A stretch of 24,677 bases of DNA, from the IMG/VR virus record IMGVR_UViG_3300020172_001361, positions 1 to 24,677 of that record. One strand, given 5' to 3'. A program made the translations under genes and the position numbers. This DNA is from a virus. The number at the start of each line of letters is the position of its first letter. The stretch's first letter is position 1. Below, piece by piece: positions 2,319 through 22,200 of this stretch. The notes beneath the pieces were generated by a model, which saw nothing but the letters and a program-made list of their open reading frames with translations, had not been told where the DNA came from and searched no databases.

Positions 2319-2328
2319 ATTAGAAACT

Positions 2329-3181: not shown

Positions 3182-3184
3182 AAG

Positions 3185-3192
3185 TATAAATT
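3185..3192 (+). promoter_or_regulatory. Second, tandem late-promoter-like box (TATAAATT)
   Basis: TATAAATT also matches the late box at seven of eight positions and lies four bases after the first box. Use of this one would leave a leader of only about five bases before gp25. Confidence 0.4.
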
Positions 3193-3203
3193 GATCTTTT
3201 TTT

Positions 3204-3608: not shown

Positions 3609-5522
3609 ATGTCCTTAGTAAATTTTTCAAATTTAGATTTCCAACAAATAAGAACTCAAATTATTGACTATTTGAGAGCGAATAGTACTTTTTCAGACTA
3701 TGACTTTGAAGGATCTAACCTGTCGGTAATTATTGATACATTAGCATATAACACTTATATCAATTCCTTCAACGCTAACATGCTTAGCAATGAAGTTTTT
3801 ATTGATAGTGCTACTTTAAGAGAAAATGTTGTCTCTCTTGCTAGAAATATTGGATATGTACCGCGCTCAAGAAAGGCTGCAAGAGCGTCAGTATCATTTC
3901 TCGTAAATTTTGAAGGGCAGTCAAATATTCCGGTTACAGTAACTCTTAAAAAGGGACTAGCGTTTATATCATCAGCAAATGTTGGGCAGTCAACCTACGT
4001 ATTCTCAATTCCAGATGATATTACACTTCCAGTTATAAACAACATAGCATTATTTCGAAATATTGAAATTTATGAAGGTGTACTTGTAGAAGAATCATTT
4101 ACATACAATCCATCTATACAAGATCCTAGAATTGTATTGGGCAACCCAAATGCAGATACAACTACTTTAAAAGTTCTTGTTAGAAATTCATCAATTGATG
4201 TTGGTGGGGATAGATTTAGATTAATTGATAATTTGTTTCAGGCAAAAGAAAAGGCAAATATATTCTTTATTCAAGAAGTAGAAGATCAAAGATATGAATT
4301 ATTATTTGGTGATGATATTTTTGGTAAAGCATTGAAACCAGGAAATGTAGTTGATGTTTCGTATGTAGTTTCCAATGGAGAATCTGGAAATGGCGTAAGA
4401 GGATTTACTTTTTCAGGAAAATTATTAGATAACAACGGAATCACTATTATTTCTGGAATAAGTCCAATAGAAACTGTATCTCCATCAGTTTTTGGTACTG
4501 AAATCGAATCCGTCGATTCAATTAAAAAATACTCCACAAAATTATATCAATCACAATATAGAGCAGTAACAGCAGAGGATTATGAATCGATAGTTCCTTT
4601 TGTATATCCAGAAGCTTCTGTGGTTTCTGCATATGGTGGGGAGACTTTAGATCCACCAGAATATGGAAAAGTTTTTATTGCAGTAAAACCAAGATTTGGT
4701 CAGTTTTTGTCGGAGGGTGATAAAAGAAATCTAATCACAAACTTGAGAAGTTACTCAGTTGTTGGTGTGGATGTTGAAGTTGTTGATATGAAGTTTTTAT
4801 ATGTAGAATTTGAATCATATGTTTACTACAATCCAAACAAAGCATCATCTTCAGCAGCAGTTCAAAGCATGATATTTGATACTGTTAATAAGTATTCAAA
4901 GTCAAGTGAATTAAATGGTGTTGGTAGTAGATTTAAATATAGTAAATTTCAAAAAATAATTGATGATAGTCATAAAGCTATCACATCAAACCTAACAAAT
5001 ATTCAAATCAGAAGGGACTTAGTTCCTACAGTAAATACAGTTGGAACATATGAAATTTGTTTTGGAAATGCTTTTGCAGTTTTAAATGGAGATAGGGGAT
5101 ATAACATAAGATCTAGTGGATTTAGAGTTGATGGTGTTGATGGCGAAGTGTTTCTAGGTGATATTCCAGATGATACCGAAACTCTAGGAAAGATTGTTAT
5201 ATTCAGAATGTCTGCGAATAATAAAACCACTATTCTAAGAGAAGTTGGTAACGTTATTTACGACAAAGGTGAAATCAGACTTTTCAATATTAATATCGAA
5301 GGAACTAGTAAAACTAGAGATGGTCAACCAATCATTGAAATTTCAGCAGTTCCAGAATCAAATGATGTAATTGGACTACAAGATTTGTATTTACAACTAT
5401 CTGTTGGGACTAGCAAAGTTATTATGATTGACGATAGAATTTCATCAGGGGCAGATATTTCGGGATCTACATATATTAGGAGATCTAGTTATTTTGATTT
5501 TAACGAAGACGTAATTAGATAG
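3609..5522 (+). CDS. 6: gp6 baseplate wedge protein
   Basis: This 637-residue protein is the gp6 wedge subunit (660 residues in T4), whose dimers form the inner ring of the baseplate with gp25 and gp53. The N-terminus carries NLDFQQIRTQIIDYLRANST and LSVIIDTLAYNTYINSFNAN, the helical start typical of baseplate J-like proteins. YELLFGDDIFGKALKPGNVV sits before the AVTAEDYESIVPFVYPEASV segment (319-338), which is the J-family T-x-x-DYE signature. It is followed by EYGKVFIAVKPRFGQFLS and a beta-rich C-terminal third. The ATG follows gp25 directly; AAGG at 3602-3605 may be its ribosome-binding site. Its TAG overlaps AGGA (5521-5524), which can serve the giant gene downstream. Length, order and motifs agree. 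Confidence 0.92.
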   Translation: MSLVNFSNLDFQQIRTQIIDYLRANSTFSDYDFEGSNLSVIIDTLAYNTYINSFNANMLSNEVFIDSATLRENVVSLARNIGYVPRSRKAARASVSFLVNFEGQSNIPVTVTLKKGLAFISSANVGQSTYVFSIPDDITLPVINNIALFRNIEIYEGVLVEESFTYNPSIQDPRIVLGNPNADTTTLKVLVRNSSIDVGGDRFRLIDNLFQAKEKANIFFIQEVEDQRYELLFGDDIFGKALKPGNVVDVSYVVSNGESGNGVRGFTFSGKLLDNNGITIISGISPIETVSPSVFGTEIESVDSIKKYSTKLYQSQYRAVTAEDYESIVPFVYPEASVVSAYGGETLDPPEYGKVFIAVKPRFGQFLSEGDKRNLITNLRSYSVVGVDVEVVDMKFLYVEFESYVYYNPNKASSSAAVQSMIFDTVNKYSKSSELNGVGSRFKYSKFQKIIDDSHKAITSNLTNIQIRRDLVPTVNTVGTYEICFGNAFAVLNGDRGYNIRSSGFRVDGVDGEVFLGDIPDDTETLGKIVIFRMSANNKTTILREVGNVIYDKGEIRLFNINIEGTSKTRDGQPIIEISAVPESNDVIGLQDLYLQLSVGTSKVIMIDDRISSGADISGSTYIRRSSYFDFNEDVIR

Positions 5523-5535: not shown

Positions 5536-8500
5536 ATGGTAAGAAACAAAGTAAAGTTAAGTTCTATTGTAAATTCACAGATTCCTCTTTTTGCAAGAGA
5601 ATCATATCCTCTATTTGAAGAACTTTTAGAGGCATACTTTGATTATTTGGAAACTGCTGGACAACCAGCAGATATTTTAACAAATATAGAAACTTACACA
5701 AAACTAGATTTTGTTAGTAATTGGATTAATTACGTCAAATTAGCAGAAGAATTATCTATTTTCGATACCGAAATCTCAGTAAGCACAACTGAAGGATTTC
5801 CTAAAGAGAATGGATTATTAAAGATTGGTGATGAGATAATTTTTTATAGAACCAAAACAGCAACTACCTTTGAGGATTGCACCAGAGGATTTAGTGGTGT
5901 AGTTAATTATTCGGATCCAGAGAATCCAGATCATTTAGTATTTGAAGAGTCTTCAGCATCAGAACATGGTATTGAGTCTGACGTTGTTAATTTAAACTCT
6001 CTTCTTTTAGATGAATTTTTACAAAAAATAAAAATACAATTTGCTCCTGGATTTGAGAACATTGAAATAAATCCAATCGTTGATCAAAGTTTATTCATAA
6101 AGCAGGTAAAGGATTTTTATGAATCCAGAGGTACTGATAATTCGTTTATAATTTTATTTAAAGCTCTATATGGATCTTCCCCAAAAGTATTCAGACCTAG
6201 AGATTTTTTATTCACTCCATCGATTGCAGATTATAGAAAAACTCTAGATCTAACGGTAGAATCCTATATTGGGGATCCATTACAGATCGTAAATAGAGTC
6301 TTATATCAAGATCAAGATGGATCTATACCAAAAGCTTATGGTACAGTTACCGGATGTAAGGCATTTGTTAAAAATGAAAGAGCAATATACTATAAAGTAA
6401 GTCTAGATTATGGATATAATAAAGATCTTGGATTTACTGGATCCGTATTTGGCAATTTTACAATCCACCATCAGACACCAACTCTAAGTAAAGTCTCTAT
6501 AGGTGCTAGTGTAATTACAGTAGACTCAACCATTGGGTTCCCGGATGATGGAGAACTTATAGTTCTTTTCCAAGGGGAAACTGCAGATGATGACACCTGG
6601 ATGCTTCTTAATTATGAATCAACCAATACAAATCAATTCTTAGGTGTTACTGGAGTTACTAGGGAAATTGACGAGGGTGCATTCTTAAGCGTAAATGCTT
6701 ACGTATACTCTTATGATAATGAAGGTGAAGAAGTTAGAATGCGAGTTACCGGCATTCTATCCGATTTAGTTGAAGAAGTTCCAACCCCATATTCTGTTGT
6801 TGGAGAGCCTGTTCAAGTATGGGAATTGGGTAAAAAAGCAGAATCTGTACAGGCAAATTCTTGGATATTTAATCATGCAATATCTAATAGAGTTTTACAA
6901 TTAGTTGATGAAGGAAATTTAAACTATGCTATAACAACATATGATAATTGCTACGTTAATCGCGGTGATATTGTAAATCTTAATTGTGAAGTTAGAAATT
7001 ATGATGGTAGTTTAGAAACCATCGAAAAAGAATTTGAAGTCTCTTCTGGACCAACTCCAAATAATTCATTTAGAGTTGTAAATGATAGGCCAATAACACA
7101 AGCATATTATGTAAAGAGAAGAATTACAAAAGTAACTGGATCCGAAATTATTGCGAATGTTCAGAACACTTACATAGATAATAGAAATGATGTTTATGTA
7201 ACATCAAATTCACTACCAAACTATGGTAATGAATTTTTAGATTTAAAATATAGAAGCGTTATTATAAGTGGAACTTTTGATAATCAGCAAACTATAGTAG
7301 CAAAAAATCATGGATTGTATACTGGAGATGCTGTATATTATGATGATTCATACACCGAAAATAATACTCTAAACCTATCTGCAATTTATTTTGCATATAG
7401 AATTGATAGTGATACTTTTAAATTAGCTAGAAGTAGAAATAATTTAGATTCTGCAGATTACGTATACTTAACTGGAACAACACAATATTCCAAGTTAGTT
7501 AGATTGAATAATGCTAATGAAGTTGGAAAAGAATATGAATTACTTCCACAAAAATTAGTTAAAAAAATAACTACAGATCCGCAAGCCAGAATATTTGATT
7601 ATCCAATTGACCCAGAAGAAAGAATTGGTATATTCAGAAATGGAGTTGAAATTTTAACATATAAATCAAAGGACTTTTGTTACTACGGTGAAATTGAAGA
7701 AGTAATCGTTAATTCTGGTGGGGAGTCTTACGATGTTATAAATCCACCAAGATTGGATATATTAGATGTTAATGGGTCAGGATTTTCTGGTGATGTCGTT
7801 GTTTCTGGAAGTCTTTTAAAAATTGATGTTCTAGATGGTGGTTTTGACTACATCGAAAACAAGCCAAGAGTTTTAATCAAGGGTGGAAATCCGACTAGAA
7901 CTGCTAGTGCGTCAGCGAACGTAAAATCTGTTCGCCATAAAGTATTTTTCAGATCAGATGCACAGGGAGTGAATATTGTTGAAGATACAATATCATTCGC
8001 ATCTCCTCATAAATTTAGAAATGCGGATAGAGTTTCATATTCTTCTCAGGGTCAACAAAAAATTTCAACATTGGAGGAAGGATCCTTATACTATGTTGGT
8101 GTAATTAATAATAAAAAAATAAGTTTACATCGTACTATTGAAGATGCCCTTGGAATAGTAAACCCATTAAATCTTGGATATGGTATTGGAGAACATACCC
8201 TTGAAGCATCTATTTCAAAAACTATTGTAGAATCAATTTCTATTGGTAATCCTGGATCTGGATATTCAAATAATAAAGTTATAGTAACTTCTGTTGGAAT
8301 TAATACAGCAAATTATGTTATAACTTCAAAAAATCATAATTTTAAGCGGGATGATAGATTAGTATATACTTACACGGGTTCTCCTATTTCTGGATTATCA
8401 ACAACAAAAACATATATTGCATCAATTTTAGATAAAGATAGTTTTATTTTATATGAGGAAAATGAAACTCTAGGAGAAAATCCATTAAAGTTTAAAAATA

Positions 8501-11500
8501 AAAATGAAGTAGTAAAATTAAATTCAGCTCCATCTGGATATCATACTTTTTCATATCCACCAATAACAGTTGAAGTTGTTGGTGAAAAGGGAGTAGGATC
8601 TCTAGTTGAGGGAGATTGTGTTACAATTTTAAATCCAATATTTAGAGGTGAAGTAACAAAGGTTGCAATAAGAAATCCTGGAACAAACTATGGATTAAAA
8701 GATATATTAAATTTCCATAAACAACCACGATACTATTTTAGAACAGGAGAATCGGCTATTGTTCAACCAATAATCTTTAATGGATCTATTAAAGATGTGG
8801 TTATATCTTCACAAGGAGAATATTATTTTAGTTCACCAAACATTTATGTATTTGAATCAGATCCAACAGTAAAACCAATTAATGCAACTCTTTCACCAGT
8901 TATAAGTAATGGTAAATTAGTTGATATTAAAGTTATAGATGGTGGTTTTAACCATAGTGCAAATGCAAAAATTATTGTAGAATCTCCAGCAACAGGAGCA
9001 TCTTTACAGTTTAAAATAAAATCATGGAATGTTAATATAGTAGATAGGCTTATAAGAGAAAATAGTATTCCTCTTGATGACGGCATTCTTGTGAGGTCTA
9101 CTAATAATAATAGTTCTTATGGATTGCAATATACTCATGCATACGCACCAAGAAAGTTGCGTAATATGGTATTTTCTCAAAAATTTGAGGAGGGAATATT
9201 AAAATACCAAACCGATTTGAATAGTGATACATCAACACCATATCACTCACCAATTATTGGATGGTCCTATGACGGTAATCCAATCTATGGTCCATATGGA
9301 TATGATACCCCATCTGGTGGAAGAATTCGTCAGATGGTATCTGGATATACCAGATTTGATTCTGGAAATAGACCGGATTTCCCATTAGGATTTTTTGTAG
9401 AAGATTTTATCTTTAGAGGGTCCGGCGATTTAGATGAATATAATGGTAGATATTGCATTACTCCAGAATATCCAAATGGAACATATGCATATTTCCTAAC
9501 CTTAGATAATACTTTGCAAAAAGAAGGAATATTCGCTCAAAATAAACTTCCGTCTTTCCCATATGTGATAGGGCCATCCCATTATTCTCAACCAGTTAGA
9601 TTTAATAATAGCACACAATTTGATCAAAATACTTTTGACTTCGAAGCATTTAAATGCAGAAGAAATACATTCCCATATAATCTAAAGGAATGGTATAGTG
9701 GTTATGATTATATTGTACAACCAAATAAAGTTGATGCTCATTATTCAGTTGTTAAAGAAATTACACCTTCATCAATAGATACCATTGAAATTATAGATCC
9801 AGGAACTGGATATAAAGTTAAAGATCCAATTCTATTCGATAACGTTGGAACTGGAGGAACTGGTGTTTCTGCAAGTGTTAGTGAAGTAAAAGGAAGACCA
9901 ATATCATCAATTATATCGTCTGAGAATTATATTAATGGAGTTAAATTATATCAATCAAAATCATCTACAGGATTTATTGCAATATGTAATGAACCACATG
10001 ATCTTATATCAAACGATATTATTTCAATAACTGGTGTTTGTACATCTAAAAATTATGCAGTTGATTCTAAAGAAAAAGTAAGAATTCCTTCAACAAATTA
10101 CATTCTTGGAAAAGATTTAGGAACTCCAACCACAACTGGAGTAACAACTTACATAACAGTTGCTAGTGGAGTTTTATTCTCACCACTAATTGACGAAAAT
10201 GATGTTCTTATAATTGGTAGTGAAAAAATGAAGGTTTTAAGCGTTGACTTAAAATCTTCAAGAATTAGAGTTTTAAGAAATTATAAGTCTACTGTAGGTA
10301 CAGCATACTCAGCATCCACCTCATTCTCGGTTGTACCAAGAAAATTCTTTATTGATGGATATCTAATTAATGAATTAAATATCGGCAGGTATGATAGAGA
10401 GTATTATTTTAATCCAGTAGAATCTGTTGGAATTGGATCCACTCATGGACCGGGAGTAACCACATCAATATACATAACAAATTCTGGATTGGGAAATACC
10501 ACATTACTCGTTCCAACAAGATCAATTTATATTGAAAATCATGAGTTAGAAACTGGAGATTTAGTTACTTATGCAACAAATGGTGGAAATCCACTTGTTG
10601 TTTCAGTAACAGGAATTGGAACAACTGTAATACAGAATAATTCAGATTTATATGTTGTAAAATTTAGTAAAGATACGATTGGATTATCAACAGTTAAAAT
10701 TGGATTAACAAGTTCTTTTGATGGATTTGAATATGCAGGTATAACAACAAATATCAATGCAAGACCATTATATTTTGTAGGTATTGGAACTGGAGATTAT
10801 CATAGCTTAAAAACTAATTATGACCATGTTTCTTCGGAGGTTTTCCAATCCACAATAACTGTGAATACGACGGAAGATAATCAGTTAGAAATAGGAGATA
10901 AAATTAGATTAGAATTAATTCCGTCATCTATAAAAACATTTAAAGTTTTTTACAATGATAAAAATAGAAGATTACTTATCAATAGACTTCAAATAAGTAG
11001 CGTAGATATATTAAATGACCAAATTATTATTCCAGATCATGGACTCACTGATGGTGAAAAAATTATTTACATTTCATTAAATCCAATAGGTGGACTTATA
11101 ACTGATACAATTTATTATACAGTTTATATCAATAAGGACACAATTGAATTAACTACTGATTACAACGAATCACAATTAATGTCTGGTGAAAGAGTAAATC
11201 TTACCAGTAGTGGTGGAGATGGATATATTTACAGAGTAAATCCACAAATAATATCTGAGAGAAATGATACTGTTGTATTTGATTTAAGTGATTCTTCACT
11301 ATCATATATTGATGGTACAACTAGGCTTTCGGCATTTGAATTTAAACTGTTTAGAGATTCAAAATTTAAGGAAGAATATATTACTGATGAAACATCTTCA
11401 AGTTTTTCTGTAACATCTAGTGGTGTAATTGGCGTCGATTTAAATGCTAATGTAACTTTAAAAGTTGGTGAGTTTTCACCTTTAGAACTTTATTATGCTT

Positions 11501-14500
11501 TAGTTCCAAAGAAAAGTCAAGGATTATCTAAAGTAAAATCAGAAATCATAACTGATACTTATAATATTACACAACCAAATAAATTAATTTTAACATATCC
11601 ACGCATTAATGCATCCGTTCACAGTACAGTATCAACTTCTTCAACATCGTTTACATTTAAAACTCCAGTTAATTTAACAAAAGTATCTTATGCAACAACA
11701 GAAGCTTCAATAAAATATTATACAACATCATCTAAAACAACTGGACCAATTAGTGGAATAACATTATTTAATGAAGGATCTGGGTATAAAACTCTTGTTG
11801 GAATAGCAACTGTAATAAGCAATACTGGAATTGACGCAAGAGTAAAGGCTAAGGGACCAACCATTGGAACAAGAAAAGAATTCCATACTGAAGATGTTGG
11901 TTGGGATTATCCAACAGATCCCACACTATTCCCAACTGCAAAAATGCCTGATGTTTTTGAAGTTGACCAATTATATTCATTTGATACCATAACTTTAAAG
12001 TATTCTGGAGTAAACTATACAGTTTTACCAAATTTAGTTGTACAGGATTCCACAACTTTAGAAATATTGGATGATTTAATACTGGATTATAGAAATAATA
12101 AAGTTGAAATTGTAAAAAATACATTTAGATTAACAAATAATACTCCCGTTTTCATCCCTATTAACAATTCAAATGGTTTTAGTATTAAAAATTTATCCTT
12201 TAATACCACAACTAAAGAGGTAACTTTAACATTTAAAACCAGCTTTAGTGATCCAAATAGATTCCCATTTGTGGTTGGGGATAAAATTTTAATCGAAGGT
12301 TGTGCGTCAAAAACTCTTGGTAGTAAAAATAGATCTTTTAATAGTTCTGATTTTTCATACAAATTATTCACCATTACAGAAATTGATGCGAATATTGGTG
12401 GTTCAAATGCAACTTTAAAATACAACCTTTCGGGTATAGTAGATGCTGATGAAACTCTAGGACTATACGATGAGGTATCTTCAACTGGAATTGTTGTACT
12501 ACAAAAACATTTCCCAACATTCACTTCAGTAATCAAAAAGAGTGCTTATGTTGCTGGGGAATTGATTTTTGGAGCAACAAGTGGGGCTATTGGTGAAGTT
12601 CATTCTTGGGATGCAAGTAATGAAATAATTAAATCATTTGGTCCATATAACTTTGCTGTTGGAGAGCTTATAAGAGGTGAAAAGAGCGGAACTGTATCAA
12701 GAATCTCCAAAATTTATAAGAGTGAGATGTACTATAAAATTGGACCCGCCGCTGAAGTTGTGAAAGGATGGTTAAACGAGAAGGGATTCTTAAATAATAA
12801 TTTCCAAGTTGTACAGGATAGTTTCTACTGGCAGAGATTTTCTTATGCAATTCAGAGTAATATATCTGAAAATGTATGGGAAAGTAGTGTAGAAAGTCTA
12901 AATCATCTTGCTGGATGGAAGAGATTTAGTGATCATACTATTGAATCTAAGAATTTATCTTTCGTTGGTATTAACACATCGCAAGATGGTGGAGATTTCT
13001 TATCAATAGCAGATCTAAATCAAACAATTGATTTAAATTGCTCCTTTGATTTTGATATAGTTCTGGATGAAACTTCTCTAATTGGATCTAGAAGAGTATC
13101 TACTGGACTAGTATTTAATAGCAGAGATTTGCAAGATTATGAAAAATCCATAGGAAATAGAGTTCTTGTTATAGACGATGTAAGTGATCAGTTTAATAAT
13201 ACTCCAAGACCAGATCCATATAGTGTAATCAGTACCTTTAAATTAGCAAATGTAAGATCTAGAAAGTTTTTAGTATACGCTAGAGATAAGAGATTTACAG
13301 GTGAAAGACAGGTATACTTAGTTACAACAATTCATAACGGTTCAAATGCATACTTGAATCAATATGGAAGGGTCGAATCTGTTGGGGCACTTGGATCTTT
13401 TGATATTGATATAAGAGGGGATGAAGGAAGATTATTATTCTATCCTAATAAATTCAGAGTAAATGATTATGATTTAAGTCTCGTATCTTATGATGTAAGA
13501 GATTATATTTCTGGAGTTGGTAATACAAACTTTGGAAATATTGTTAACATACAAAGTATTTTTACAAATAGAACATCTGCTATAGGTTCAACAACTATAG
13601 CATCAATTCCTTTAGATTATAGAGCGTCTAAATTATTGGTTCAAATTGAAGATTCTCAAAATGTATTTGAATATGATGAAATCACAGTTCTTCATGATGG
13701 AACTAATGTTGAAATGCTTGATTATGGACAAATAACTACAGGAGTTGGAGCTTCTTTAGGAATTGGAACATATTACGCCTATATTTCTGGATCAAATTTA
13801 AAAATAGATCTGATACCAGATTATCCATATGATGCCGATATTAATGTTCTAAGAGTTTCTATAGCATCTTCAGAATCTGGTTTTGTTGATACTGGAGCAC
13901 AGGATTTAAATACGACAAGATTGCAGTCACACTATGTTGCAATTGCTTCAACTAATAGTCTTAATCCAACAAAAATAGCAGAATTTGAAAATGGATTATT
14001 GAATTATAGTGGTGGATATTTAATTATTAGTATTGAAGATAAAACAAATCAGAGATATCAAGTTTCTGAAATGAATGTAATTACTGATGACTCGGAAGCA
14101 TACTATGCTGAGTTTGGAATACTTTATAATGATAGTGAAATAGGCATAATTACAGCTGGTGTTAATGCAGGATATACTGAAGTATACTTCACTGCAGATT
14201 CGAATATAGATGCTGAAGTTAGAGTTTTTGGAAATTATATTGGATTAGTTGATACATTTAATCCAAATAATGAGATTCTTATGAATAATACTAGAATATT
14301 TACAGGATATGGTGAATATGAAGGTACTGAAAGATCTATAAAGAGAGAATTTGAATTATATCATAAAGGAAATCCTATCTTTGAAAAGAAATTCAATGGA
14401 GAAAACACAGAGGTTATTAAAATTGCTGATAACTTAATAGAACTTCCACAACATTATTTTGTTACTGGTGAAAAAGTATTTTATTCATATGATATGTTAA

Positions 14501-17500
14501 ATGAACCGATTGGAATTGCTACAACAACAATTTCTGGAATTGGTTTAACGGACAAACTTCCAAGCGAAATTTATGTTATCAAAGAAGATGATTTAAATGT
14601 TCGTTTTGCATCCACTGCGGAAAATGCATTAAAACTCGTACCAATTCCACTAACAATTACAAGTGTTGGATTTGGTTCAGATCATTACATCACTTCACAA
14701 AAACAAAATGTTAAATCCCTGATATCTATTGATAATATGATACAATCACCAATTGTATCAACTGCAGTTACATCTGGATTATCAACAAGTATTCTAACTA
14801 CTGACGATATTATAACTTTAACTATCAATGTCGAATTCTTCTTCAGTGGAGATTTGATTAAAATTAACGATGAGATAATGAAAGTAAGTATTGTTGGTTA
14901 TGGTGGATCTGCAAATAACATTTATGTACAGAGACCATGGATGGGAACAACATTATCCACACATAGTCAATTTGATGAGGTAACTAAGGTTGTTGGAAAC
15001 TATAATATTTCTAGAAATACTATCAGTTTTGCATCGCCACCATATGGAAAATATCCATTAGGACTTCCAGAAAATAGACCAGATTCTAGAGATTATACTG
15101 GTATAACAACACACTCTACTTTTAGTGGTAGAACATTTATGAGATCTGGTGTTACAGATTCATCAATTGAACCTTACACCAAAAATGTTGTTTTTGATGG
15201 TATTCAAGATTCATTTACTGGATTTACAAGTTCATTTACTCTAACAGTTGATGGGTCCGATGTAACTGGAATACTGGACAGTAATGCAATTATTACAGTT
15301 AAAGATATTTTCCAAGCACCTAGGGTTCTTGGTAACGTAGTTAGCATTCCTGGAAATTATTTCCTAGAGGAAGATGAAATTTTAGGAAAAACCACTATCT
15401 TGTTTGAAGATAATAATTATTCTGGTAATGATGTATTAACTAGGGGACTTCCAACTGGAGGAAGAATAGTTTCTGTTGGTTCCAGTAAAGGATTTGGATA
15501 TCAACCACTAGTTTCTGCTGCTGGAACTGCAATTGTTTCTTCTGCTGGAACAATATCATCCATTAATATTACAAATATTGGTTCAGGTTATAGATCTGGT
15601 ATCCAAACAGTTTATGTTGGACTGCAGACTTCAAGCACAGACTCTTCTGGAATTACAACTCATATTGGTCTAGCATCTATAAGTAATGGTAGAGTTAACA
15701 GCGTAACTATTATAAATCCAGGAACTGGATTTACTCATTCAAACCCACCTCTAGTTATATTCGATAGTCCACTATCATATACAAATATTCCTTTAGAATA
15801 TGCACCAACATCTATTGGTAGAACAACAGGAGTAAAAGCAACAGTTGATATAGTTGTTGGACAAGGTTCAAGTGTTATTGACTTTAGCTTTACAAACATC
15901 GGTCATGGATATGAAATTAATAATGTCCTTACAGTTTCTGTTGGTGGAACAACTGGAATTCCTACAACTGCAGGATATTTTGAAAATTTTGAAATAACTG
16001 TAACGGATACTGATACAGATGAGTTTACTGGATGGACAATAGGAGATCTTCAAGTAATTGATGATATAAGTGACTTGTTTGATGGTGTAACTACTAGATT
16101 CCCAATAAAATTTGATGGTATTAGAAGGTCAATTAAAGCATCTACAGGATCGCTAATTGATGTTCAGTCAACTTTACTAATCTTCATTAACGATATTCTC
16201 CAAGTTCCTGGGCAAGGTTATATATTTAAGGGTGGAAGTGTAATTAGATTTAGTGAACCACCAAATGAAGGTGATAAATGTACTATTTTATTCTATAAAG
16301 GAACTGGTTCTATTGACGTTGAAGAAGTTGATATTTTAGAAACAATTAAATCGGGTGACGTTGTAACAGTTCATAGTGATAATCCAATTCAAGATCAAGA
16401 TGATAGATCCGTAAAGGATGTAACATCTACGGATTCTGTAGATACTTTTATTTACGGTGGTCCTGGAATATCTGCTGATCCATTTTTAGCTAGACCTGTA
16501 AACTGGTGTAAGCAATCTAATGATATTATAGTTGATGGTATTGAAATAACAAAAGATAGAGATCTTTATGAAGCACAAATCAATCCATTAACAAATATAA
16601 TTTATGATGTTGGAACAGCCTCAACAACAATTTATGTTGAAAGTGTAAAGACATTCTTTGATAATAAAAAAGAAAATACAAATGTAAATTATATTAATAC
16701 TATTGATATAGTAACTCAGGACGAAACAAGAGAATGTTTGGCTGTTGCATCAGTAAATTCTTCTGGAATTGTTACAACAATAACATTGGTAGATTCTGGA
16801 TTTGGATATTCATCAATTCCAACAGTAACTATTGCTAATCCAATAGGTGTTGGTACAACTGCTTTAGCAACAGCGTCCATATCTGGCGGAAAAGTCACCA
16901 CTATTAATGTTATATCCGGTGGATCTGGTTATATTCAATCATCACCACCAATAGTGTTGGTATCTCCACCAAATCCAAGCGGTGAGGTAGCATTTAGAGT
17001 TAATTATGAGGGCGACTTTGGATTGATAACAGGTATAGGAACAACCTCAGTTGGAGTTTCATCGGTTGGTTTAGTCTTTGAATTTACAATTCCAGAAAAT
17101 TCACCTCTGAAAGATCTATCAATTGTCGAGGACGCAATTGATTATAGTGGAATTGGAACTGGAGATTTCTTTGTTGTTAAAGAAACTAACATTGGTTATG
17201 GAATAACTTCAATAGAGTTGGATGGATCTCCATTAGTAAGTGGAACCGAATATATTAATAATGTCTATCAAGTTCATGATTTAATAACTGATATTCCATA
17301 TACTGTCCTTGTTGATGATTTTATTGCAAGTTTAACAAGATATGGATCATTCTCAGTTGGATTGGGAAGATCAACTACGGTATCTATTGGCGCTACTCTA
17401 ATAATAGAGGATCACACCAAAGTTGTAGCAGTTGTACAAGATTTTAATAATATCGGCATAACTTCCTTCTTAACTAGATCATTCTTTGGTGAATATTCAT

Positions 17501-17637
17501 ATGGTAAACTTACAAATGTAACTAGACCATACCCAGAAGAATATCCCATATATAGAAACAATGGATTAGTTGGAATTTCAACTTCACCAATAGTAAGAAG
17601 AACTAATGCTTTAAAATACCGCAATTACCTCTCATAA
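5536..17637 (+). CDS. Giant modular baseplate protein with gp7-like N-terminus
   Basis: One uninterrupted 4,033-codon frame fills half the window. It sits where T4 has gene 7, between gp6 and gp8. Residues 16-220 resemble the C-terminal part of T4 gp7: YPLFEELLEAYFDYLE (24-39) and FYESRGTDNSFIILFKALYG (194-213). The rest is beta-rich and modular, with IGDEI-type units (77-125, 319-395, 1537-1600, 3076-3155), HGLxTGD units (from 588), GxGY units (722-1155, 1414-1444, 2074-2100, 3339-3812), a YHYH-like domain (1236-1330), SGA units (2341-2395), a WxxRFSY segment (2412-2472) and FDG/QxPG units (3220-3295, 3512-3590). There is no signal peptide, membrane segment or enzyme motif. At about 110 Da per residue it would be near 440 kDa, against 1,032 residues for T4 gp7. 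AGGA at 5521-5524 precedes the start by 11 bases. I infer a wedge protein with a long arm or fibre-like extension; the wedge role is inferred, the modularity is seen. Confidence 0.85.
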   Translation: MVRNKVKLSSIVNSQIPLFARESYPLFEELLEAYFDYLETAGQPADILTNIETYTKLDFVSNWINYVKLAEELSIFDTEISVSTTEGFPKENGLLKIGDEIIFYRTKTATTFEDCTRGFSGVVNYSDPENPDHLVFEESSASEHGIESDVVNLNSLLLDEFLQKIKIQFAPGFENIEINPIVDQSLFIKQVKDFYESRGTDNSFIILFKALYGSSPKVFRPRDFLFTPSIADYRKTLDLTVESYIGDPLQIVNRVLYQDQDGSIPKAYGTVTGCKAFVKNERAIYYKVSLDYGYNKDLGFTGSVFGNFTIHHQTPTLSKVSIGASVITVDSTIGFPDDGELIVLFQGETADDDTWMLLNYESTNTNQFLGVTGVTREIDEGAFLSVNAYVYSYDNEGEEVRMRVTGILSDLVEEVPTPYSVVGEPVQVWELGKKAESVQANSWIFNHAISNRVLQLVDEGNLNYAITTYDNCYVNRGDIVNLNCEVRNYDGSLETIEKEFEVSSGPTPNNSFRVVNDRPITQAYYVKRRITKVTGSEIIANVQNTYIDNRNDVYVTSNSLPNYGNEFLDLKYRSVIISGTFDNQQTIVAKNHGLYTGDAVYYDDSYTENNTLNLSAIYFAYRIDSDTFKLARSRNNLDSADYVYLTGTTQYSKLVRLNNANEVGKEYELLPQKLVKKITTDPQARIFDYPIDPEERIGIFRNGVEILTYKSKDFCYYGEIEEVIVNSGGESYDVINPPRLDILDVNGSGFSGDVVVSGSLLKIDVLDGGFDYIENKPRVLIKGGNPTRTASASANVKSVRHKVFFRSDAQGVNIVEDTISFASPHKFRNADRVSYSSQGQQKISTLEEGSLYYVGVINNKKISLHRTIEDALGIVNPLNLGYGIGEHTLEASISKTIVESISIGNPGSGYSNNKVIVTSVGINTANYVITSKNHNFKRDDRLVYTYTGSPISGLSTTKTYIASILDKDSFILYEENETLGENPLKFKNKNEVVKLNSAPSGYHTFSYPPITVEVVGEKGVGSLVEGDCVTILNPIFRGEVTKVAIRNPGTNYGLKDILNFHKQPRYYFRTGESAIVQPIIFNGSIKDVVISSQGEYYFSSPNIYVFESDPTVKPINATLSPVISNGKLVDIKVIDGGFNHSANAKIIVESPATGASLQFKIKSWNVNIVDRLIRENSIPLDDGILVRSTNNNSSYGLQYTHAYAPRKLRNMVFSQKFEEGILKYQTDLNSDTSTPYHSPIIGWSYDGNPIYGPYGYDTPSGGRIRQMVSGYTRFDSGNRPDFPLGFFVEDFIFRGSGDLDEYNGRYCITPEYPNGTYAYFLTLDNTLQKEGIFAQNKLPSFPYVIGPSHYSQPVRFNNSTQFDQNTFDFEAFKCRRNTFPYNLKEWYSGYDYIVQPNKVDAHYSVVKEITPSSIDTIEIIDPGTGYKVKDPILFDNVGTGGTGVSASVSEVKGRPISSIISSENYINGVKLYQSKSSTGFIAICNEPHDLISNDIISITGVCTSKNYAVDSKEKVRIPSTNYILGKDLGTPTTTGVTTYITVASGVLFSPLIDENDVLIIGSEKMKVLSVDLKSSRIRVLRNYKSTVGTAYSASTSFSVVPRKFFIDGYLINELNIGRYDREYYFNPVESVGIGSTHGPGVTTSIYITNSGLGNTTLLVPTRSIYIENHELETGDLVTYATNGGNPLVVSVTGIGTTVIQNNSDLYVVKFSKDTIGLSTVKIGLTSSFDGFEYAGITTNINARPLYFVGIGTGDYHSLKTNYDHVSSEVFQSTITVNTTEDNQLEIGDKIRLELIPSSIKTFKVFYNDKNRRLLINRLQISSVDILNDQIIIPDHGLTDGEKIIYISLNPIGGLITDTIYYTVYINKDTIELTTDYNESQLMSGERVNLTSSGGDGYIYRVNPQIISERNDTVVFDLSDSSLSYIDGTTRLSAFEFKLFRDSKFKEEYITDETSSSFSVTSSGVIGVDLNANVTLKVGEFSPLELYYALVPKKSQGLSKVKSEIITDTYNITQPNKLILTYPRINASVHSTVSTSSTSFTFKTPVNLTKVSYATTEASIKYYTTSSKTTGPISGITLFNEGSGYKTLVGIATVISNTGIDARVKAKGPTIGTRKEFHTEDVGWDYPTDPTLFPTAKMPDVFEVDQLYSFDTITLKYSGVNYTVLPNLVVQDSTTLEILDDLILDYRNNKVEIVKNTFRLTNNTPVFIPINNSNGFSIKNLSFNTTTKEVTLTFKTSFSDPNRFPFVVGDKILIEGCASKTLGSKNRSFNSSDFSYKLFTITEIDANIGGSNATLKYNLSGIVDADETLGLYDEVSSTGIVVLQKHFPTFTSVIKKSAYVAGELIFGATSGAIGEVHSWDASNEIIKSFGPYNFAVGELIRGEKSGTVSRISKIYKSEMYYKIGPAAEVVKGWLNEKGFLNNNFQVVQDSFYWQRFSYAIQSNISENVWESSVESLNHLAGWKRFSDHTIESKNLSFVGINTSQDGGDFLSIADLNQTIDLNCSFDFDIVLDETSLIGSRRVSTGLVFNSRDLQDYEKSIGNRVLVIDDVSDQFNNTPRPDPYSVISTFKLANVRSRKFLVYARDKRFTGERQVYLVTTIHNGSNAYLNQYGRVESVGALGSFDIDIRGDEGRLLFYPNKFRVNDYDLSLVSYDVRDYISGVGNTNFGNIVNIQSIFTNRTSAIGSTTIASIPLDYRASKLLVQIEDSQNVFEYDEITVLHDGTNVEMLDYGQITTGVGASLGIGTYYAYISGSNLKIDLIPDYPYDADINVLRVSIASSESGFVDTGAQDLNTTRLQSHYVAIASTNSLNPTKIAEFENGLLNYSGGYLIISIEDKTNQRYQVSEMNVITDDSEAYYAEFGILYNDSEIGIITAGVNAGYTEVYFTADSNIDAEVRVFGNYIGLVDTFNPNNEILMNNTRIFTGYGEYEGTERSIKREFELYHKGNPIFEKKFNGENTEVIKIADNLIELPQHYFVTGEKVFYSYDMLNEPIGIATTTISGIGLTDKLPSEIYVIKEDDLNVRFASTAENALKLVPIPLTITSVGFGSDHYITSQKQNVKSLISIDNMIQSPIVSTAVTSGLSTSILTTDDIITLTINVEFFFSGDLIKINDEIMKVSIVGYGGSANNIYVQRPWMGTTLSTHSQFDEVTKVVGNYNISRNTISFASPPYGKYPLGLPENRPDSRDYTGITTHSTFSGRTFMRSGVTDSSIEPYTKNVVFDGIQDSFTGFTSSFTLTVDGSDVTGILDSNAIITVKDIFQAPRVLGNVVSIPGNYFLEEDEILGKTTILFEDNNYSGNDVLTRGLPTGGRIVSVGSSKGFGYQPLVSAAGTAIVSSAGTISSINITNIGSGYRSGIQTVYVGLQTSSTDSSGITTHIGLASISNGRVNSVTIINPGTGFTHSNPPLVIFDSPLSYTNIPLEYAPTSIGRTTGVKATVDIVVGQGSSVIDFSFTNIGHGYEINNVLTVSVGGTTGIPTTAGYFENFEITVTDTDTDEFTGWTIGDLQVIDDISDLFDGVTTRFPIKFDGIRRSIKASTGSLIDVQSTLLIFINDILQVPGQGYIFKGGSVIRFSEPPNEGDKCTILFYKGTGSIDVEEVDILETIKSGDVVTVHSDNPIQDQDDRSVKDVTSTDSVDTFIYGGPGISADPFLARPVNWCKQSNDIIVDGIEITKDRDLYEAQINPLTNIIYDVGTASTTIYVESVKTFFDNKKENTNVNYINTIDIVTQDETRECLAVASVNSSGIVTTITLVDSGFGYSSIPTVTIANPIGVGTTALATASISGGKVTTINVISGGSGYIQSSPPIVLVSPPNPSGEVAFRVNYEGDFGLITGIGTTSVGVSSVGLVFEFTIPENSPLKDLSIVEDAIDYSGIGTGDFFVVKETNIGYGITSIELDGSPLVSGTEYINNVYQVHDLITDIPYTVLVDDFIASLTRYGSFSVGLGRSTTVSIGATLIIEDHTKVVAVVQDFNNIGITSFLTRSFFGEYSYGKLTNVTRPYPEEYPIYRNNGLVGISTSPIVRRTNALKYRNYLS
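5581..6195 (+). other. gp7-like N-terminal region of the giant protein
   Basis: Residues 16-220. Two motif blocks resemble the C-terminal region of T4 gp7 as I remember it: an F-x-x-x-x-EAYxxYL helix near the start, and an FxESRG...FxxLFKxLY block near residue 200. An IGDEI-type beta unit (77-125) is inserted between them. The comparison is from memory, so an alignment or a structure model is needed to be sure. Confidence 0.6.
5764..5910 (+). repeat. IGDEI-type module, copy 1 of 4
   Basis: Residues 77-125 contain GFPKENGLLKIGDEIIFYRT followed by a CTRGFSG turn. Related units lie at residues 319-395 (GFPDDGELIVLF), 1537-1600 (DVLIIGSEKMKVLSV, then RVLRNYKSTVGT) and 3076-3155 (GDLIKINDEIMKV, then VQRPWMGTTLSTH). 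The shared plan is a GxxxIxDEIM/IxV strand pair, an aromatic/basic strand and a small-residue turn. Divergence is high, so the units are old. Confidence 0.5.
7297..8460 (+). repeat. HGLxTGD modules, first cluster
   Basis: Three ~45-52-residue units share the plan xNHGLxTGDxVxY ... YxxxxIDxDTFxL: residues 588-632 (KNHGLYTGDAVYY ... YRIDSDTFKL), 819-870 (SPHKFRNADRVSY ... VINNKKISL) and 928-975 (KNHNFKRDDRLVY ... ILDKDSFIL). Further copies occur at 1663-1722, 1828-1875 and 2966-3033, with a short one at 1480-1506. The pattern predicts small beta domains. Confidence 0.65.
7699..9000 (+). repeat. GxGY repeats, N-terminal cluster of six
   Basis: Six ~22-29-residue units follow the plan I-x-V/I-x-x-x-G-G/S-x-Y/F-x(4-6)-P-x-V/I: residues 722-745 (VIVNSGGESYDVINPPRL), 761-785 (IDVLDGGFDYIENKPRVLI), 900-921 (ISIGNPGSGYSNNKVIV), 1040-1060 (AIRNPGTNYGLKDIL), 1086-1108 (VVISSQGEYYFSSPNIYV) and 1127-1155 (IKVIDGGFNHSANAKIIV). 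Two isolated units follow at 1414-1444 and 2074-2100. HGLxTGD units at 819-870 and 928-975 are interspersed among them. Confidence 0.7.
9241..9525 (+). other. YHYH-like domain in the giant protein
   Basis: Residues 1236-1330 carry YHSPIIGWSYDGNPIYGPYG, then LDEYNGRYCITPEYPNGTYA. This is the signature order of the YHYH domain family (IxGWAxDGxPIYGPYGY, then the NGR...TPEYPxGTYHYxxT block). The closing YHYH box itself is degenerate here: TYAYFLT lacks both histidines. The biochemical role of the family is not known to me. Confidence 0.8.
11017..11160 (+). repeat. HGLxTGD module, well-kept copy
   Basis: Residues 1828-1875 read IIIPDHGLTDGEKIIYI, a short loop NPIGGLITDTIYY, then YINKDTIELTTD. 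This is the clearest match to the first-cluster plan. Neighbouring copies are at 1663-1722 (ENHELETGDLVTY ... KDTIGL) and 2966-3033 (PQHYFVTGEKVFY ... EDDLNVRF). Confidence 0.6.
12556..12960 (+). other. SGA units and conserved WxxRFSY segment
   Basis: Residues 2341-2395 hold two SGA units, GELIFGATSGAIGEV and GELIRGEKSGTVSRI. They are followed by GWLNEKGFLNNNFQVVQDSF and YWQRFSYAIQ, then NHLAGWKRFSDH (2412-2467). I recall a similar GFLN...QDSxYYQxFSY...HxAGxxxF arrangement from other marine phage structural proteins, so this block may be the ancestral centre of the extension. Confidence 0.55.
15193..15420 (+). repeat. FDG...QxPG module, copy 1
   Basis: Residues 3220-3295 contain VFDGIQDSFTGFTSSFTLTV, then ITVKDIFQAPRV and KTTILFED. 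The second copy (residues 3512-3590, positions 16069-16305) reads LFDGVTTRFPIKFDG, then LLIFINDILQVPGQGYIF and CTILFYKG. Both follow the plan FDG..T.F, V.I.DI.Q.P, .TILF. Confidence 0.6.
15550..16971 (+). repeat. GxGY repeats, C-terminal cluster of five
   Basis: Units at residues 3339-3363 (INITNIGSGYRSGIQTVYV), 3386-3412 (VTIINPGTGFTHSNPPLVI), 3447-3471 (FSFTNIGHGYEINNVLTV), 3745-3769 (ITLVDSGFGYSSIPTVTI) and 3786-3812 (INVISGGSGYIQSSPPIVL). They are closer to each other than to most of the N-terminal cluster. The second FDG...QxPG unit is nested between copies three and four. Confidence 0.7.
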
Positions 17638-17659: not shown

Positions 17660-19216
17660 ATGTCTGCTATTATAACTGATCAAATTAGAATTCTTAATGC
17701 GAAAAATTTCTTAGATCTTGCTGATGATAGCGAGAATAATTCTTTTTATGCTTTTATAGGATTACCAAATCCTAGTGATGCTTCATCAACATGGGATTCT
17801 TCTCCACCAGCACCAAAGGATTCATTTGAGCAAGAATTTGATTATTGGGATACTATGATTGCTCTTAAAAAAATTTCTTCAGGAGATATAAGACAAGTAA
17901 TAAGAAAAATAACTTGGACTTCTGGAACAACATATGATATGTATCGTCATGATATAAGTAGAACAAATCTTGCTAGCCCATCTAACGCCACAAGTTTATA
18001 TTCTTCAAATTTTTATATTATGAACTCTGATTATAGAGTTTACATATGTTTGCAGAATGGAACAACTCCGGAGACCCCAAACGGAAAACCTTCACTAGAT
18101 GAACCTCTATTTACTGATTTAGAACCACAAGTTGCTGGAAATAGTGGTGATGGTTATATATGGAAGTACTTATTCACTATTAAGCCAGCAGATATTGTTA
18201 AATTTGATTCTATTAATTTTATTCCTGTACCGAGAGACTGGGAAACAAGTTCAGTCCATGCTCCAATAAGAGACAATGCAGAAAGTAGTGGACAAATAAA
18301 AATAATAACAATAAAAAATAGAGGGGTTGGACTTGGAACCGGTGGAGTTACCTTTTCAAATATTCCAATAAATGGTGATGGATCAGGAGCAACAGCAACT
18401 ATTGTAATTAATAATGACTCAAAGGTTGATACAATAACCATTTCTTCGGGAGGGGATGGTTATACTCATGGAAGAGTTGATATTTCAAATACCTCACTTG
18501 CTTCTGCAACAGTTGCACCACAATTTGATGTTATAATCCCTCCCGTTGGTGGACATGGATTTGATATCTATAGAGAACTTGGAGCAACTAATGTTTTACT
18601 ATACACTAGAATTGAAAATGATACATCAAATCCAGATTTTATCGTAGGAAACCAAATTGCTAGAATTGGAATTGTACAAAATCCAACTCAATTTGGATCA
18701 AATACATCATTGTTAACCTCCGATAAGGTAAGTTCTTTGTATGCATTAAAATTAACTGGAGTTGGATATAGTTCAGCTTCATTTGAATTTGATACATTTA
18801 TAACCCAAACAGTTGGTCTTGGAAGTACTGCTGTTGGTAGAGTTGTATCATATGATAGAGAAACTGGAGTATTAAAATATTGGCAGGATAAATCCATGGT
18901 TGGATTTAATACCAATGGAACTCAAAGAACCCCACAATATGGATATACACTGCATAGATTTACTTCAGATTTTGATCCAGGTGGAAGTTTAAATATAACT
19001 GGAGGTTCTATTCCACTAACAGTGGACGATAATTTTACAGGTATAACAACGACTATAAATAATAACACATATAATCTTGGACAGAATTTTTTTCAAGGAG
19101 TTTCAAATCCTGAAGTTCAAAAATATTCGGGAAATATAATTTATGTTGATAATAGACCATCAATTACTAGGTCTAAGAGTCAAAAAGAAGACATTAAGGT
19201 TATTTTGCAATTTTAA
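17660..19216 (+). CDS. 8: gp8 baseplate wedge protein, enlarged
   Basis: This 518-residue protein has both ends of T4 gp8, a wedge protein of 334 residues that dimerises in the baseplate. The N-terminal side shows ENNSFYAFIGLPNPSDAS (25-42), DYWDTMIALKKISSGDIRQV (61-80) and NSGDGYIWKYLFTIKP (161-176). The last matches the gp8 GDGYxWEYLF box. The C-terminal YSGNIIYVDNRPSITRSKSQ (489-508), followed by a final strand, matches the gp8 HSGExIYxENRPPI end. Between them, roughly 210-410, is extra sequence that includes a GxGY unit (ITISSGGDGYTHGRVDI, 259-275) and an SGA-like unit (GLGSTAVGRVVSYDRETG, 386-403), both related to modules of the giant protein. A late-type box precedes it; no strong Shine-Dalgarno is seen. 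Identity is good, from motif recall and position. Confidence 0.85.
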   Translation: MSAIITDQIRILNAKNFLDLADDSENNSFYAFIGLPNPSDASSTWDSSPPAPKDSFEQEFDYWDTMIALKKISSGDIRQVIRKITWTSGTTYDMYRHDISRTNLASPSNATSLYSSNFYIMNSDYRVYICLQNGTTPETPNGKPSLDEPLFTDLEPQVAGNSGDGYIWKYLFTIKPADIVKFDSINFIPVPRDWETSSVHAPIRDNAESSGQIKIITIKNRGVGLGTGGVTFSNIPINGDGSGATATIVINNDSKVDTITISSGGDGYTHGRVDISNTSLASATVAPQFDVIIPPVGGHGFDIYRELGATNVLLYTRIENDTSNPDFIVGNQIARIGIVQNPTQFGSNTSLLTSDKVSSLYALKLTGVGYSSASFEFDTFITQTVGLGSTAVGRVVSYDRETGVLKYWQDKSMVGFNTNGTQRTPQYGYTLHRFTSDFDPGGSLNITGGSIPLTVDDNFTGITTTINNNTYNLGQNFFQGVSNPEVQKYSGNIIYVDNRPSITRSKSQKEDIKVILQF

Positions 19217-19222: not shown

Positions 19223-22200
19223 ATGCCACAGGAAACTAATTTAAACGTTGCTCCCTATTTTGACGATTTTGATAGAACAGAAGATTACTATAGAGTTCTT
19301 TTTAAACCTGGGTATCCTGTTCAAGCAAGAGAACTAACAACTCTACAATCAATACTTCAGAATCAGATAGAACAATTTGCAAGTCACTTCTTTAAAGAAG
19401 GTACTGCGATTAGTGGTGGACAAATTAATTATATTTCAAATTTACCATGTGTTCAAGTTGAAGATTCATATAATAGCAGAAGTTTAATTGAATATGCGGC
19501 TGAATTAATAAACACTGTTATAATTGGATCTCGGAGTGGTGTTAGAGCAAGAATTGAAGCATTTTTACCAGCTTCTTCATCTGAAAGGGGATATGATACA
19601 TTTTATCTCTCATATCTATCATCAAACTCAGCGTCTTCGAGATTTACTGGATTTATTCCCGGCGAAGATTTATTATCAGAATCTGGATTTCAAACAGCAT
19701 CTTCTTTAGATCGTGATCCCGGAGATGGTCCAGATGGACTTGTAGAAAGTTTAGATAATCTTATAGTAATTTCAAGAAGATCTGGATTTGCAAAATGTAT
19801 TGCATCAAATCCAAATGCAATGGGTTCTGCAGTTGTTCTTAATGCAGGAACTTATTACATTAGAGGTCATTTTGTTGAAGCTCCAGCAAAAACTTTATTG
19901 TTAGACCAATATAGCACCCAACCTTCATACAAAGTTGGATTCTATATCTATGAATCTATAGAAACTTTTGCTGAAGATGAGGACTTATTAGATAATGCAC
20001 AAGGGTATCCAAATTTTACCGCTCCAGGCGCTGATAGATTTCAACTAGAAATCGAGTTAGTAAAATTAGATATTAATGAGAAAAAGGATCTTACAAATTT
20101 TGTACAAATTCTAGAAATTAGATCTGGAATTTTACAGAACCAAAACAGAACAACAGAATATACCAGACTAGCTGATGAACTTGCTAGAAGAACATTTGAC
20201 CAGGCTGGTAATTTTTATGTGAAACCACCATCCCTATCAGTAAGAAATTCTCTTAACGATAGAAAGGGAAATAATGGATTATTTAATGAAGGTGAATCAA
20301 CACTACTTGGACAAACGCCATCAGATTCTCTTGGTGTTTATTCAATATCACCATTAAAAGCATATATTCAAGGATATGAAGTTGAAACTATAGCTCCTTC
20401 TATTCTAGATTTCCAAAAACCAAGAACAACTAAGACATTAACTGAGCAGACAGTTACGTATTTTACGGGTCCAACATTTGTAGTTAATAGGGTTTATGGT
20501 TATCCAACTCTAGGAATCACTACAAGTTTTTATGTTTCTCTAAGAGATTCTAGAAGTGAATCTGATCAAACTCTTCCACCGGGCAAGGAAATTGGTGTAG
20601 CAAGAGTTTTTGATTATGAGTTAGAAACTGGTAGTTACAATACATCAAATGCAAATTTAAATGAGTGGGATGTTTCTTTATATGATGTTCAGCCATATAC
20701 TGAATTAACTTTAAATGAGCCAATATCATTACCAATACCAACTAGTATAAGAGGTAAATCGAGTGGTGCTACTGCACACTTAAGATATTCTACAACTAGT
20801 TCTGGAATTTTAACTGCCTATAACATAAGTGGTAGATTTAGTATTGGTGAAAAGCTTTTCTTTAATGGAGTAGAAAACCCAAGAGTAACTAGGGTAGTGA
20901 AGGAGTATTCAACTTCAGATGTTAAGTCATTATATGGAGTAAATTCCAATTCAACTTACTTCTGTGCTGATACAAAATTATATCCAAATATTTTAGTTGG
21001 ACAAGTAACAATTAGTCCTAGATCATTAGGAATTTCTACAGTAACATCAACAACTGTAGATTTAAATCAAGTATTTAATGTTGGTGATATCTGCGCTTAT
21101 TCAGATCCATCATCATCCACGGTTGTATATTCAAAAGTAACAGCAGTATCAGTTCAAACAATAAACATTGCTGGTATAGCTACTGTTACTGGAATAAACC
21201 AGGGAGCACTACCAGCATCACAAATAACCCCAAGTGACTTTAGAAAAGTATCACCATCTTTACAAAGATCAACGGATAATACTTTATATACACTTTTACC
21301 TAAGAAATATATATCTTCGGTTAATTTAGAAAATTCTGTATTAACAATAAGAAAAACTTATCCAGTTGCTATAACTGGGGGAGTGACTAATTTAATATCC
21401 TCTGGGACTGATCTTAAGTTTTTACCATTTGATGCAGGAAGATATATTTTAACAAGAGATGATGGTACATTTGAGGTTTTAACGGAAGATAAATTTGCTT
21501 TTGGTAATGGATTTAAAGAATTAACTATTTTAGGTTTAGGTTCTAACACAACTGGTGTTTTAGTAGCAACTTTAGAAAAAACAAATGTTAAAAATAAAAC
21601 AAAAATAAGAAATAAGGTAGCATCAATAATTGTAGATAAATCTAGAGATGTTGGTTCTGGAATAGGAACAACAACTTTAAATGATGGATTAACTTATGGT
21701 AATTTCCCATATGGAACTAGAGTTCAGGATGAAGAAATTTGCTTAAATTATCCAGATGTAACAAAAATACTCGGAGTTTATGAATCAGATAATTTATTAG
21801 AACCTGATCTAAGGAAATTAAGACTTCTTAATTTAAATGGAACATCATCAACAACTGCTGATTTAATTGTAGGTGAAGAATTAGTTGGACAAAGTAGTGG
21901 AGCTGTTGCTATTTTAGTTAAAAAAACTGATGCTTTAACAACAGAATTCATTTATTTAAATACTGCAACTTTTAGAGTTGGTGAAAAAGTTAACTTTAAA
22001 GAAAGTAGAATACAGGCAGATATTGTAGAATTACTAGGATCAGATTTAGATATAACATCAAAGTATACACTAGATTCTGGTTATAGAAATACAATATATG
22101 ATTATTCTAGAATAGTTAGAAATCAATCCGCACCCGCACCAACCAAAAAATTAAAAATAGTATTTGAATATGCTTCATATAAAGACTCAGATACAGCAGA

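Follow-up and report, generated by a model that had tools for sequence, protein, structure and literature searches.

A predicted giant gp7 in a T4-like cyanophage-type myovirus, with a long beta-modular insertion between two gp7 segments

The window, that is, the whole 24,677-base stretch of viral DNA analysed here, carries a run of baseplate genes in the order gp25-gp6-gp7-gp8-VrlC (Table 1); the first four genes recur in this order in relatives, usually followed by VrlC. The gene between gp6 and gp8, the place that gp7 takes in the wedge operon of T4-type phages, begins with an ATG at position 5536 and is read through to a stop codon that ends at 17637. As the sequence-only reading had put it, this is a 12.1-kb gene, and it forms one open frame of 4,033 aa without internal stops (predicted mass 444.6 kDa), with neighbours identified by both Pfam and PHROG profiles. 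The VrlC-type gene and the gene annotated as VrlC in P-HM1 are members of one family. Because the virus record is only a fragment of this length, genome-wide statements, including the absence of any other gp7, are drawn from the genomes of relatives.

Table 1. Baseplate genes of the window and subdivisions of the giant gp7 (positions are those of the window, residues those of the giant protein).
Feature	Residues	Position	Strand	Evidence or remark
gp25 homologue		3204..3608	+	Pfam GPW_gp25, E 2e-13
gp6 homologue		3609..5522	+	Expected gp7 partner in wedge; Gp6-like_1st, E 7.8e-17; phrog_219, E 2.5e-186
Giant gp7 (predicted baseplate wedge subunit)	4,033 aa	5536..17637	+	phrog_2885, 3007 bits; end-to-end blastp
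gp7 core, first helical segment	5-62	5548..5721	+	EAYFDYL at 32
Small nested beta module	66-153 (type A module 78-121)	5731..5994	+	Between two core segments
gp7 core, second segment	178-300	6067..6435	+	FYESRG..LFKALY, then domain V-like stretch
Beta-modular insertion, ~2,100 residues	301-2409	6436..12762	+	Flanked by two gp7 anchors
YHYH-type domain	1198-1324	9127..9507	+	Pfam PF14240, E 2.4e-20; metal-site histidines degenerate
Second gp7 anchor	2410-2480	12763..12975	+	T4 gp7 847-892; IQSNISENVWESSVESLNHLAGW at 2439
C-terminal extension, ~1,550 residues	2481-4033	12976..17634	+	T4 counterpart not found
Conserved block in C-terminal extension	3496-3642	16021..16461	+	Also in P-HM1, Syn19, S-SZBM1
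gp8 homologue		17660..19216	+	Phage-Gp8, E 8.4e-17; phrog_438
VrlC-type protein		19223..24676	+	phrog_358, DUF4815; continues past window end

Upstream of the baseplate genes, positions 1229-1996 match phrog_1574 (unknown) and, weakly, glycosyltransferase families. The stretch 2329-3033 matches phrog_3704, whose ferredoxin label looks doubtful here, there being no match to a ferredoxin Pfam family.

The N-terminus of the giant protein does hold the two gp7-like motif blocks that had been claimed for it: EAYFDYL at residue 32 (EAYIQYL at 669 in T4) and FYESRGTDNSFIILFKALY at residue 194 (FYSTKGIEASYKFLFKVLY at 734 in T4), set 162 residues apart in the window versus 65 in T4. When the N-terminus of the family is aligned with T4 gp7 by hhalign, the score is 51.8 (P 5.9e-6), against at most 19.0 for the controls, which were eight T4 baseplate proteins other than gp7, gp7 reversed, and eight shuffled versions. 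The second segment alone aligns with T4 gp7 726-813 (P 1.9e-8), that is, the FYxxKG..LFKxLY core segment of T4-type gp7 is present in the giant. The first segment falls in the right place, at T4 647-675, at a P of 0.17 that is not significant alone, and Pfam reports no PF21428 helical domain (T4 643-689) in the giant protein. This segment is conserved in phages X1, pf16, Mosig, Melnitz-3, and phiM9 (iE 2.6e-7 to 1.7e-12), and the AlphaFold2 (AF2) model has helices there. Domain V homology comes solely from the extended alignments, as T4 760-870 taken alone gives no match to the N-terminal profile, nor does T4 860-1032.

In a wider search, with a profile built from 11 N-termini and run against the full set of PDB sequences, only two hits were significant, both of them T4-type gp7 (9f4a, E 2.9e-5, columns 188-289 on 731-815; 5hx2/5iv5, E 4.4e-5). 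Profiles are required here, for phmmer with a single N-terminus found no match in PDB. Within T4, the profile finds a single place, which is gp7 (E 1.9e-7). In the reciprocal direction, phrog_964 (the T4 gp7 family) finds the same motif in the giant gene in six of ten complete cyanophage genomes (best E 1.1e-10, in S-SCSM1); it has no other match in any of the ten, and none at all in the remaining four. A gp7 homologue elsewhere in the genome, which would have spoken against the assignment, was thus not found in these ten relatives. For residues 1-343, AF2 gives a model of moderate quality (pLDDT 73, pTM 0.45); in a comparison of this model with 350,542 PDB chains, two T4-type gp7 chains rank first, weakly (E 2.7e-3 and 0.012) and with low TM-scores (0.13-0.14); this ranking is given low weight and is not independent of the sequence, as Foldseek uses residues too. 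Judged by these profile comparisons, the 12.1-kb gene is a gp7 homologue of a T4-like cyanophage-type myovirus.

T4 gp7 (1,032 aa; PDB 5IV5, 5HX2) has an N-terminal bulk of ~640 residues that the giant lacks: with hhalign, the conserved N-terminal region of the giant family finds no match in T4 gp7 1-640. We do not hold this bulk to be defining outside T4's group. Short gp7s without it are found in Xanthomonas phage X1 (498 aa), Pseudomonas phage pf16 (523 aa), and Pseudoalteromonas phage XG4 (419 aa), and also in pelagiphage Mosig (874 aa) and in Melnitz-3 (896 aa). In all five, the conserved segments follow one another as they do in the giant, those annotated adjoin gp6, most are annotated as "hypothetical protein", and their insertion amounts to merely tens to a few hundred residues. 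The description of the giant as a "stripped" gp7 therefore stands insofar as the T4 bulk is absent, and a loss is unproven because the non-cyanophage relatives of 419-523 aa are also without it. The bulk may instead be a gain in T4, which we infer to be simpler than a loss in the giants, the data fitting either course.

Several "hypothetical proteins" beside gp6 are gp7 homologues (L205 8545-11169, from a pelagiphage; L208 8458-11148, from a Methylophilales phage; L206 4965-6536, from pf16). In Sinorhizobium phage phiM9 (L207 4203-6914), the gp7 core begins only at residue ~266, and this phage therefore has an N-terminal addition of its own.

The gp7-like part had been thought to end at about residue 220-320. 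Scanning the giant in blocks against the short gp7s and T4 brings out a second gp7 segment far downstream, at residues 2410-2480, which corresponds to T4 847-892 and which we call the second anchor. Block 2331-2480 matches X1 gp7 377-439 and T4 gp7 848-888; its hhalign score against T4 gp7 is 39.0 (P 1e-4), with other T4 proteins and shuffles reaching 18.0 at most, and its C-terminal half gives a P of 3e-5. The shared motif, KS..W..V..HPxGF, reads IQSNISENVWESSVESLNHLAGW in the window and IKSNLPSSRWKSDVIRFVHPVGF at residue 866 in T4. PDB-wide, T4 gp7 is the only hit of this block at E<=10, with an E of 0.073 that is weak alone. The match to T4 leans on position and on the short gp7s as intermediates, namely those of Xanthomonas, Pseudomonas, Pseudoalteromonas, Sinorhizobium, Pelagibacter, and Methylophilales phages (iE 8.5e-10 to 1.9e-21; X1 6.1e-13, pf16 5.9e-18). 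A profile of the half-block falls in the gp7 gene in each of the 18 genomes searched, T4 included.

The two segments, T4 726-813 and 847-892, are ordered alike in T4 and in the giant; in the giant, ~2,100 additional residues separate the two motifs and another ~1,550 follow the second one. Counted from FYxxKG to the second motif, the spacing is 132 residues in T4 versus 2,245 in the window. What had been read as a single extension of ~3,800 residues is thus, by these alignments, ~2,100 residues inserted between pieces of gp7 and ~1,550 residues at the C-terminus; most of it therefore lies inside gp7. One could still picture a gp7 of which only the C-terminal part remains, with one unbroken extension after it, given that the strongest T4 match sits at the N-terminus and that T4 residues 1-640 have no counterpart. 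We regard this as very unlikely, for it leaves aside a T4-gp7 segment at 2410-2480 that keeps the order of T4 and of all the short gp7s, and short gp7s of non-cyanophages are also without the N-terminal bulk.

Among the relatives surveyed, both anchors are present in 86 open reading frames (ORFs), always in the same order, with 249-2,760 residues between them (counted between profile ends, and so a different count from the motif spacing of 132 and 2,245). The second anchor occurs in all 76 ORFs that have the core and at least 2,450 residues downstream of it, and in no ORF without the core. One shorter gp7 ORF (L083) runs on in another frame and was taken as a probable frameshift. The spacings form a series: 249 (X1), 707, 1,051, ~1,520, 2,059-2,321, 2,685, and 2,760. 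From this series, its upper steps rounded to ~2,060-2,320 and ~2,700 residues, gp7 of cyanophages and their relatives probably grew by stepwise insertion at one core junction, with the beta-modular mass looping out. The small nested module is a separate case: it is absent from X1 and T4, and its site holds several hundred residues in Syn19, S-SM1, and S-SZBM1.

No T4 gp7 match was obtained for the C-terminal extension with block profiles 2480-3300, 3490-3650, and 3840-4033, and Pfam reports no domain VI (T4 920-1012) for the giant, which these block profiles likewise left unmatched. One might suspect that gp7 has here been fused to peripheral baseplate proteins working as separate parts, which would either be cut after assembly or, in some phages, have genes of their own. 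In phage B23 (L011 14004-25783) the co-linear protein is divided between ORFs of 2,845 and 1,081 aa, which overlap by 4 bases and each carry a gp7 annotation; the split falls at window residue ~2902-2916, the second ORF starting at the equivalent of residue 2916. S-CRM01 has a gp7 of 1,454 aa followed by separate ORFs of 317 and 504 aa. The two-ORF state of B23 could, however, be a sequencing frameshift as well as a gene split, the S-CRM01 ORFs gave no match to the window's blocks, and the other genomes examined have a single ORF. Moreover, to detach the 2,100-residue insert would require cutting gp7 itself, since the insert lies inside it. We consider a fusion of this kind unlikely, and keep to the reading of one gp7 chain with an insertion and a C-terminal extension.

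The length of the gene is not an artefact, because the S-B05 and S-SCSM1 proteins align with it end to end in blastp (1-4031 to 1-4022 of 4,024 aa, 35.0% identity; 1-4031 to 1-4117 of 4,120 aa, 35.9% identity). Environmental contigs that are ~80% identical across long stretches also support a real coding frame. The match to the PHROG_2885 profile is near full length (best stretch residues 3-3368). A tblastn search with residues 1-320 found 463 phage records, nearly all cyanophages, and the IMG/VR collection holds more than 100 further contigs with relatives of the giant. In the gp7 slot of cyanophages, the genes encode 1,454 aa in S-CRM01, 3,274 in Syn1, 3,884 in S-CAM9, 4,024 in S-B05, 4,120 in S-SCSM1, 4,314 in S-CAM7, 4,446 in P-HM1 (annotated gp7), 6,180 in S-SM1, 6,483 in Syn19, and 6,619 in S-SZBM1. 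That of S-CRM01 (L017 2701-7065), the shortest cyanophage gp7 seen, is without a YHYH domain and ends near GGQ collagen-like repeats.

The window gene thus belongs to a known kind, because the giants are already catalogued, both as PHROG_2885 and under the label "baseplate wedge initiator" in P-HM1, B23, S-CAM9, and S-B05. GenBank already holds gp7-annotated genes of 3,884-4,446 aa and unnamed homologues of up to 6,619 aa; the window adds a further member to a family, not a new phenomenon. The PHROG_2885 giants of P-HM1 (PHM1_087), S-B05 (QCW22831), S-CAM9 (S050808_072), and S-SCSM1 (SSCSM1_15) sit in the same slot between gp6 and gp8 and share with the window gene the 3,884-4,446 aa size class, the core, the YHYH domain, and the second anchor. 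Those of S-B05 and S-SCSM1 are co-linear with it from end to end at ~35% identity, and those of P-HM1 and S-CAM9 align in blocks. The database entries of these giants give no account of the insertion architecture, and in the part of the literature that we covered we found no published description of an insertion in gp7. With the gp7 assignment itself already in databases, what is new, in a modest way, is the insertion architecture.

Profile labels on these genes call for care. PHROGs phrog_701, phrog_4406, phrog_19630, and phrog_18802 are labelled "head and packaging" and yet match the giant gp7, and matches of phrog_3465 ("head closure Hc2") fall on gp7 segments. The same "head closure Hc2" label from phrog_460 was set aside, as its match falls on the GSGY repeats and has no functional meaning.

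In the extra mass, modules of type A occur twice and those of type C (HGL) six times, alongside 12-13 type B (GSGY) repeats and a single YHYH domain; the insertion itself comprises modules of all three types together with the YHYH-type domain. The gp8 of the window (17660-19216) bears two weak GSGY repeats, and such modules are therefore common to several baseplate genes. For residues 560-1400, the AF2 model is rich in beta structure (pTM 0.63) and has no significant match in PDB, and in particular none to an enzyme fold; its most frequent weak match is ubiquitin E1, including the first catalytic cysteine half-domain, which is a small fold of beta type.

A YHYH domain is present in 10 of the 11 giants examined. 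For jumbo phages a metal-dependent hydrolase has been suggested and a Zn site predicted (PMC7824862), so that the extra mass could be taken as chiefly enzymatic, with this domain as the hydrolase. In bacterial (Bacteroidetes) proteins the motif is Y-H-x-H, and none of the ten phage giants with the domain has either of these two motif histidines: the window reads YTHA, others read YAAV, YGYL, YTHL, FVHA, YTHC, YAHI, and YGIV, and S-CAM7 is without the stretch. The window protein accordingly departs from the histidine pattern of metal-binding YHYH proteins. Because of these missing histidines, metal hydrolase activity appears unlikely in the YHYH domain of the phage giants, and with no significant enzyme fold for residues 560-1400 either, we find a chiefly enzymatic role for the extra mass highly improbable. 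A YAYF stretch was considered as the degenerate motif and rejected, as alignment with the bacterial proteins puts the true motif upstream, at 1199-1202. An ORF of more than 2,000 aa on contig L196 (1-6441), from a Woesearchaeota metagenome-assembled genome (MAG), combines GSGY repeats with a YHYH domain of the phage type, and this contig is probably a misbinned phage sequence.

The published view is a different one. T4 Gp7 is stated to be absent from cyano- and pelagimyophages and apparently substituted by VrlC, and YHYH proteins are counted as putative receptor-binding proteins (PMC7029224); gp7 is also listed within the non-cyanophage core (PMC3037559). On those statements, the giant would be a separate receptor-binding or tail-fibre protein in the gp7 slot. 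Against this, both the giant and its pelagiphage equivalent are matched by the gp7 profile, and VrlC (phrog_358) is found together with gp7 in the window, in P-HM1 and S-SM1, and in phage X1. Substitution of gp7 by VrlC is thus hardly tenable, and the statements in PMC7029224 and PMC3037559 need revision, because gp7 profiles match genes of cyanophages and of pelagiphage Mosig, and VrlC coexists with gp7.

One giant orthologue is a virion protein: in S-SM1, SSM1_102 (6,180 aa, T4-GC969) bears all gp7 segments, and T4-GC969 is reported to be among the proteins detected by mass spectrometry in purified S-SM1 virions (PMC3037559). Putting this together, the gene likely encodes a gp7-type wedge subunit, made of the core and the second piece, with a junction grown by beta modules. 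As in T4-type wedges, the core helices would pair with two gp6 chains to form the wedge, with one giant chain per wedge and six per virion. The insertion, anchored by its two ends, would loop out of the wedge; the C-terminal arm would depart from the second anchor. With a copy number taken from T4, where gp7 is present in six copies (PMC3004832), the giant would add up to 2.67 MDa in total.

The insert and arm probably make up the baseplate periphery, a mounting surface for tail fibres and for contact with the cell surface, and would replace both the N-terminal bulk of T4 gp7 and gp10/gp11; of all parts of this reading, we are least sure of this one. We lean toward this role because gp7 counterparts elsewhere anchor spikes or fibres, and because gp11 was undetected in all of ten cyanophages and gp10 shows in four of the ten merely an N-terminal match of ~40-80 residues. 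In phage XM1, the core loop and C-terminus of the gp7 counterpart gp17 (242 aa) hold the tail spikes (PMC10457771), and in A-1(L) the C-terminal loop of gp32 (roughly 150 aa) helps hold the long tail fibre (PMC10966104); according to the published structures of these simpler contractile tails, both are small wedge cores in which a loop or C-terminal part does the anchoring. The additions of the giant look like occupants of analogous places, the likeness being one of analogy only, as no sequence match of the giant to XM1 gp17 or A-1(L) gp32 was obtained.

Giant gp7 genes are among the largest of very abundant ocean viruses and are often recorded as "hypothetical" or "virion structural protein", and PHROGs place part of them under head and packaging; for their annotation the gp7 anchors offer a simple homology landmark. 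Since cyanophages and pelagiphage Mosig have a gp7, and VrlC coexists with it, gp7 would belong to the shared T4-like core, which has until now been drawn up without it. If growth by stepwise insertion is right, the periphery of these baseplates would be an insert in a wedge subunit instead of being assembled from further proteins, of the kind that T4 has in gp10 and gp11, with up to ~2,700 residues per wedge held in the wedge at both ends. Insertion at one core junction also predicts where, in a cryo-EM map, the extra mass would leave the wedge.
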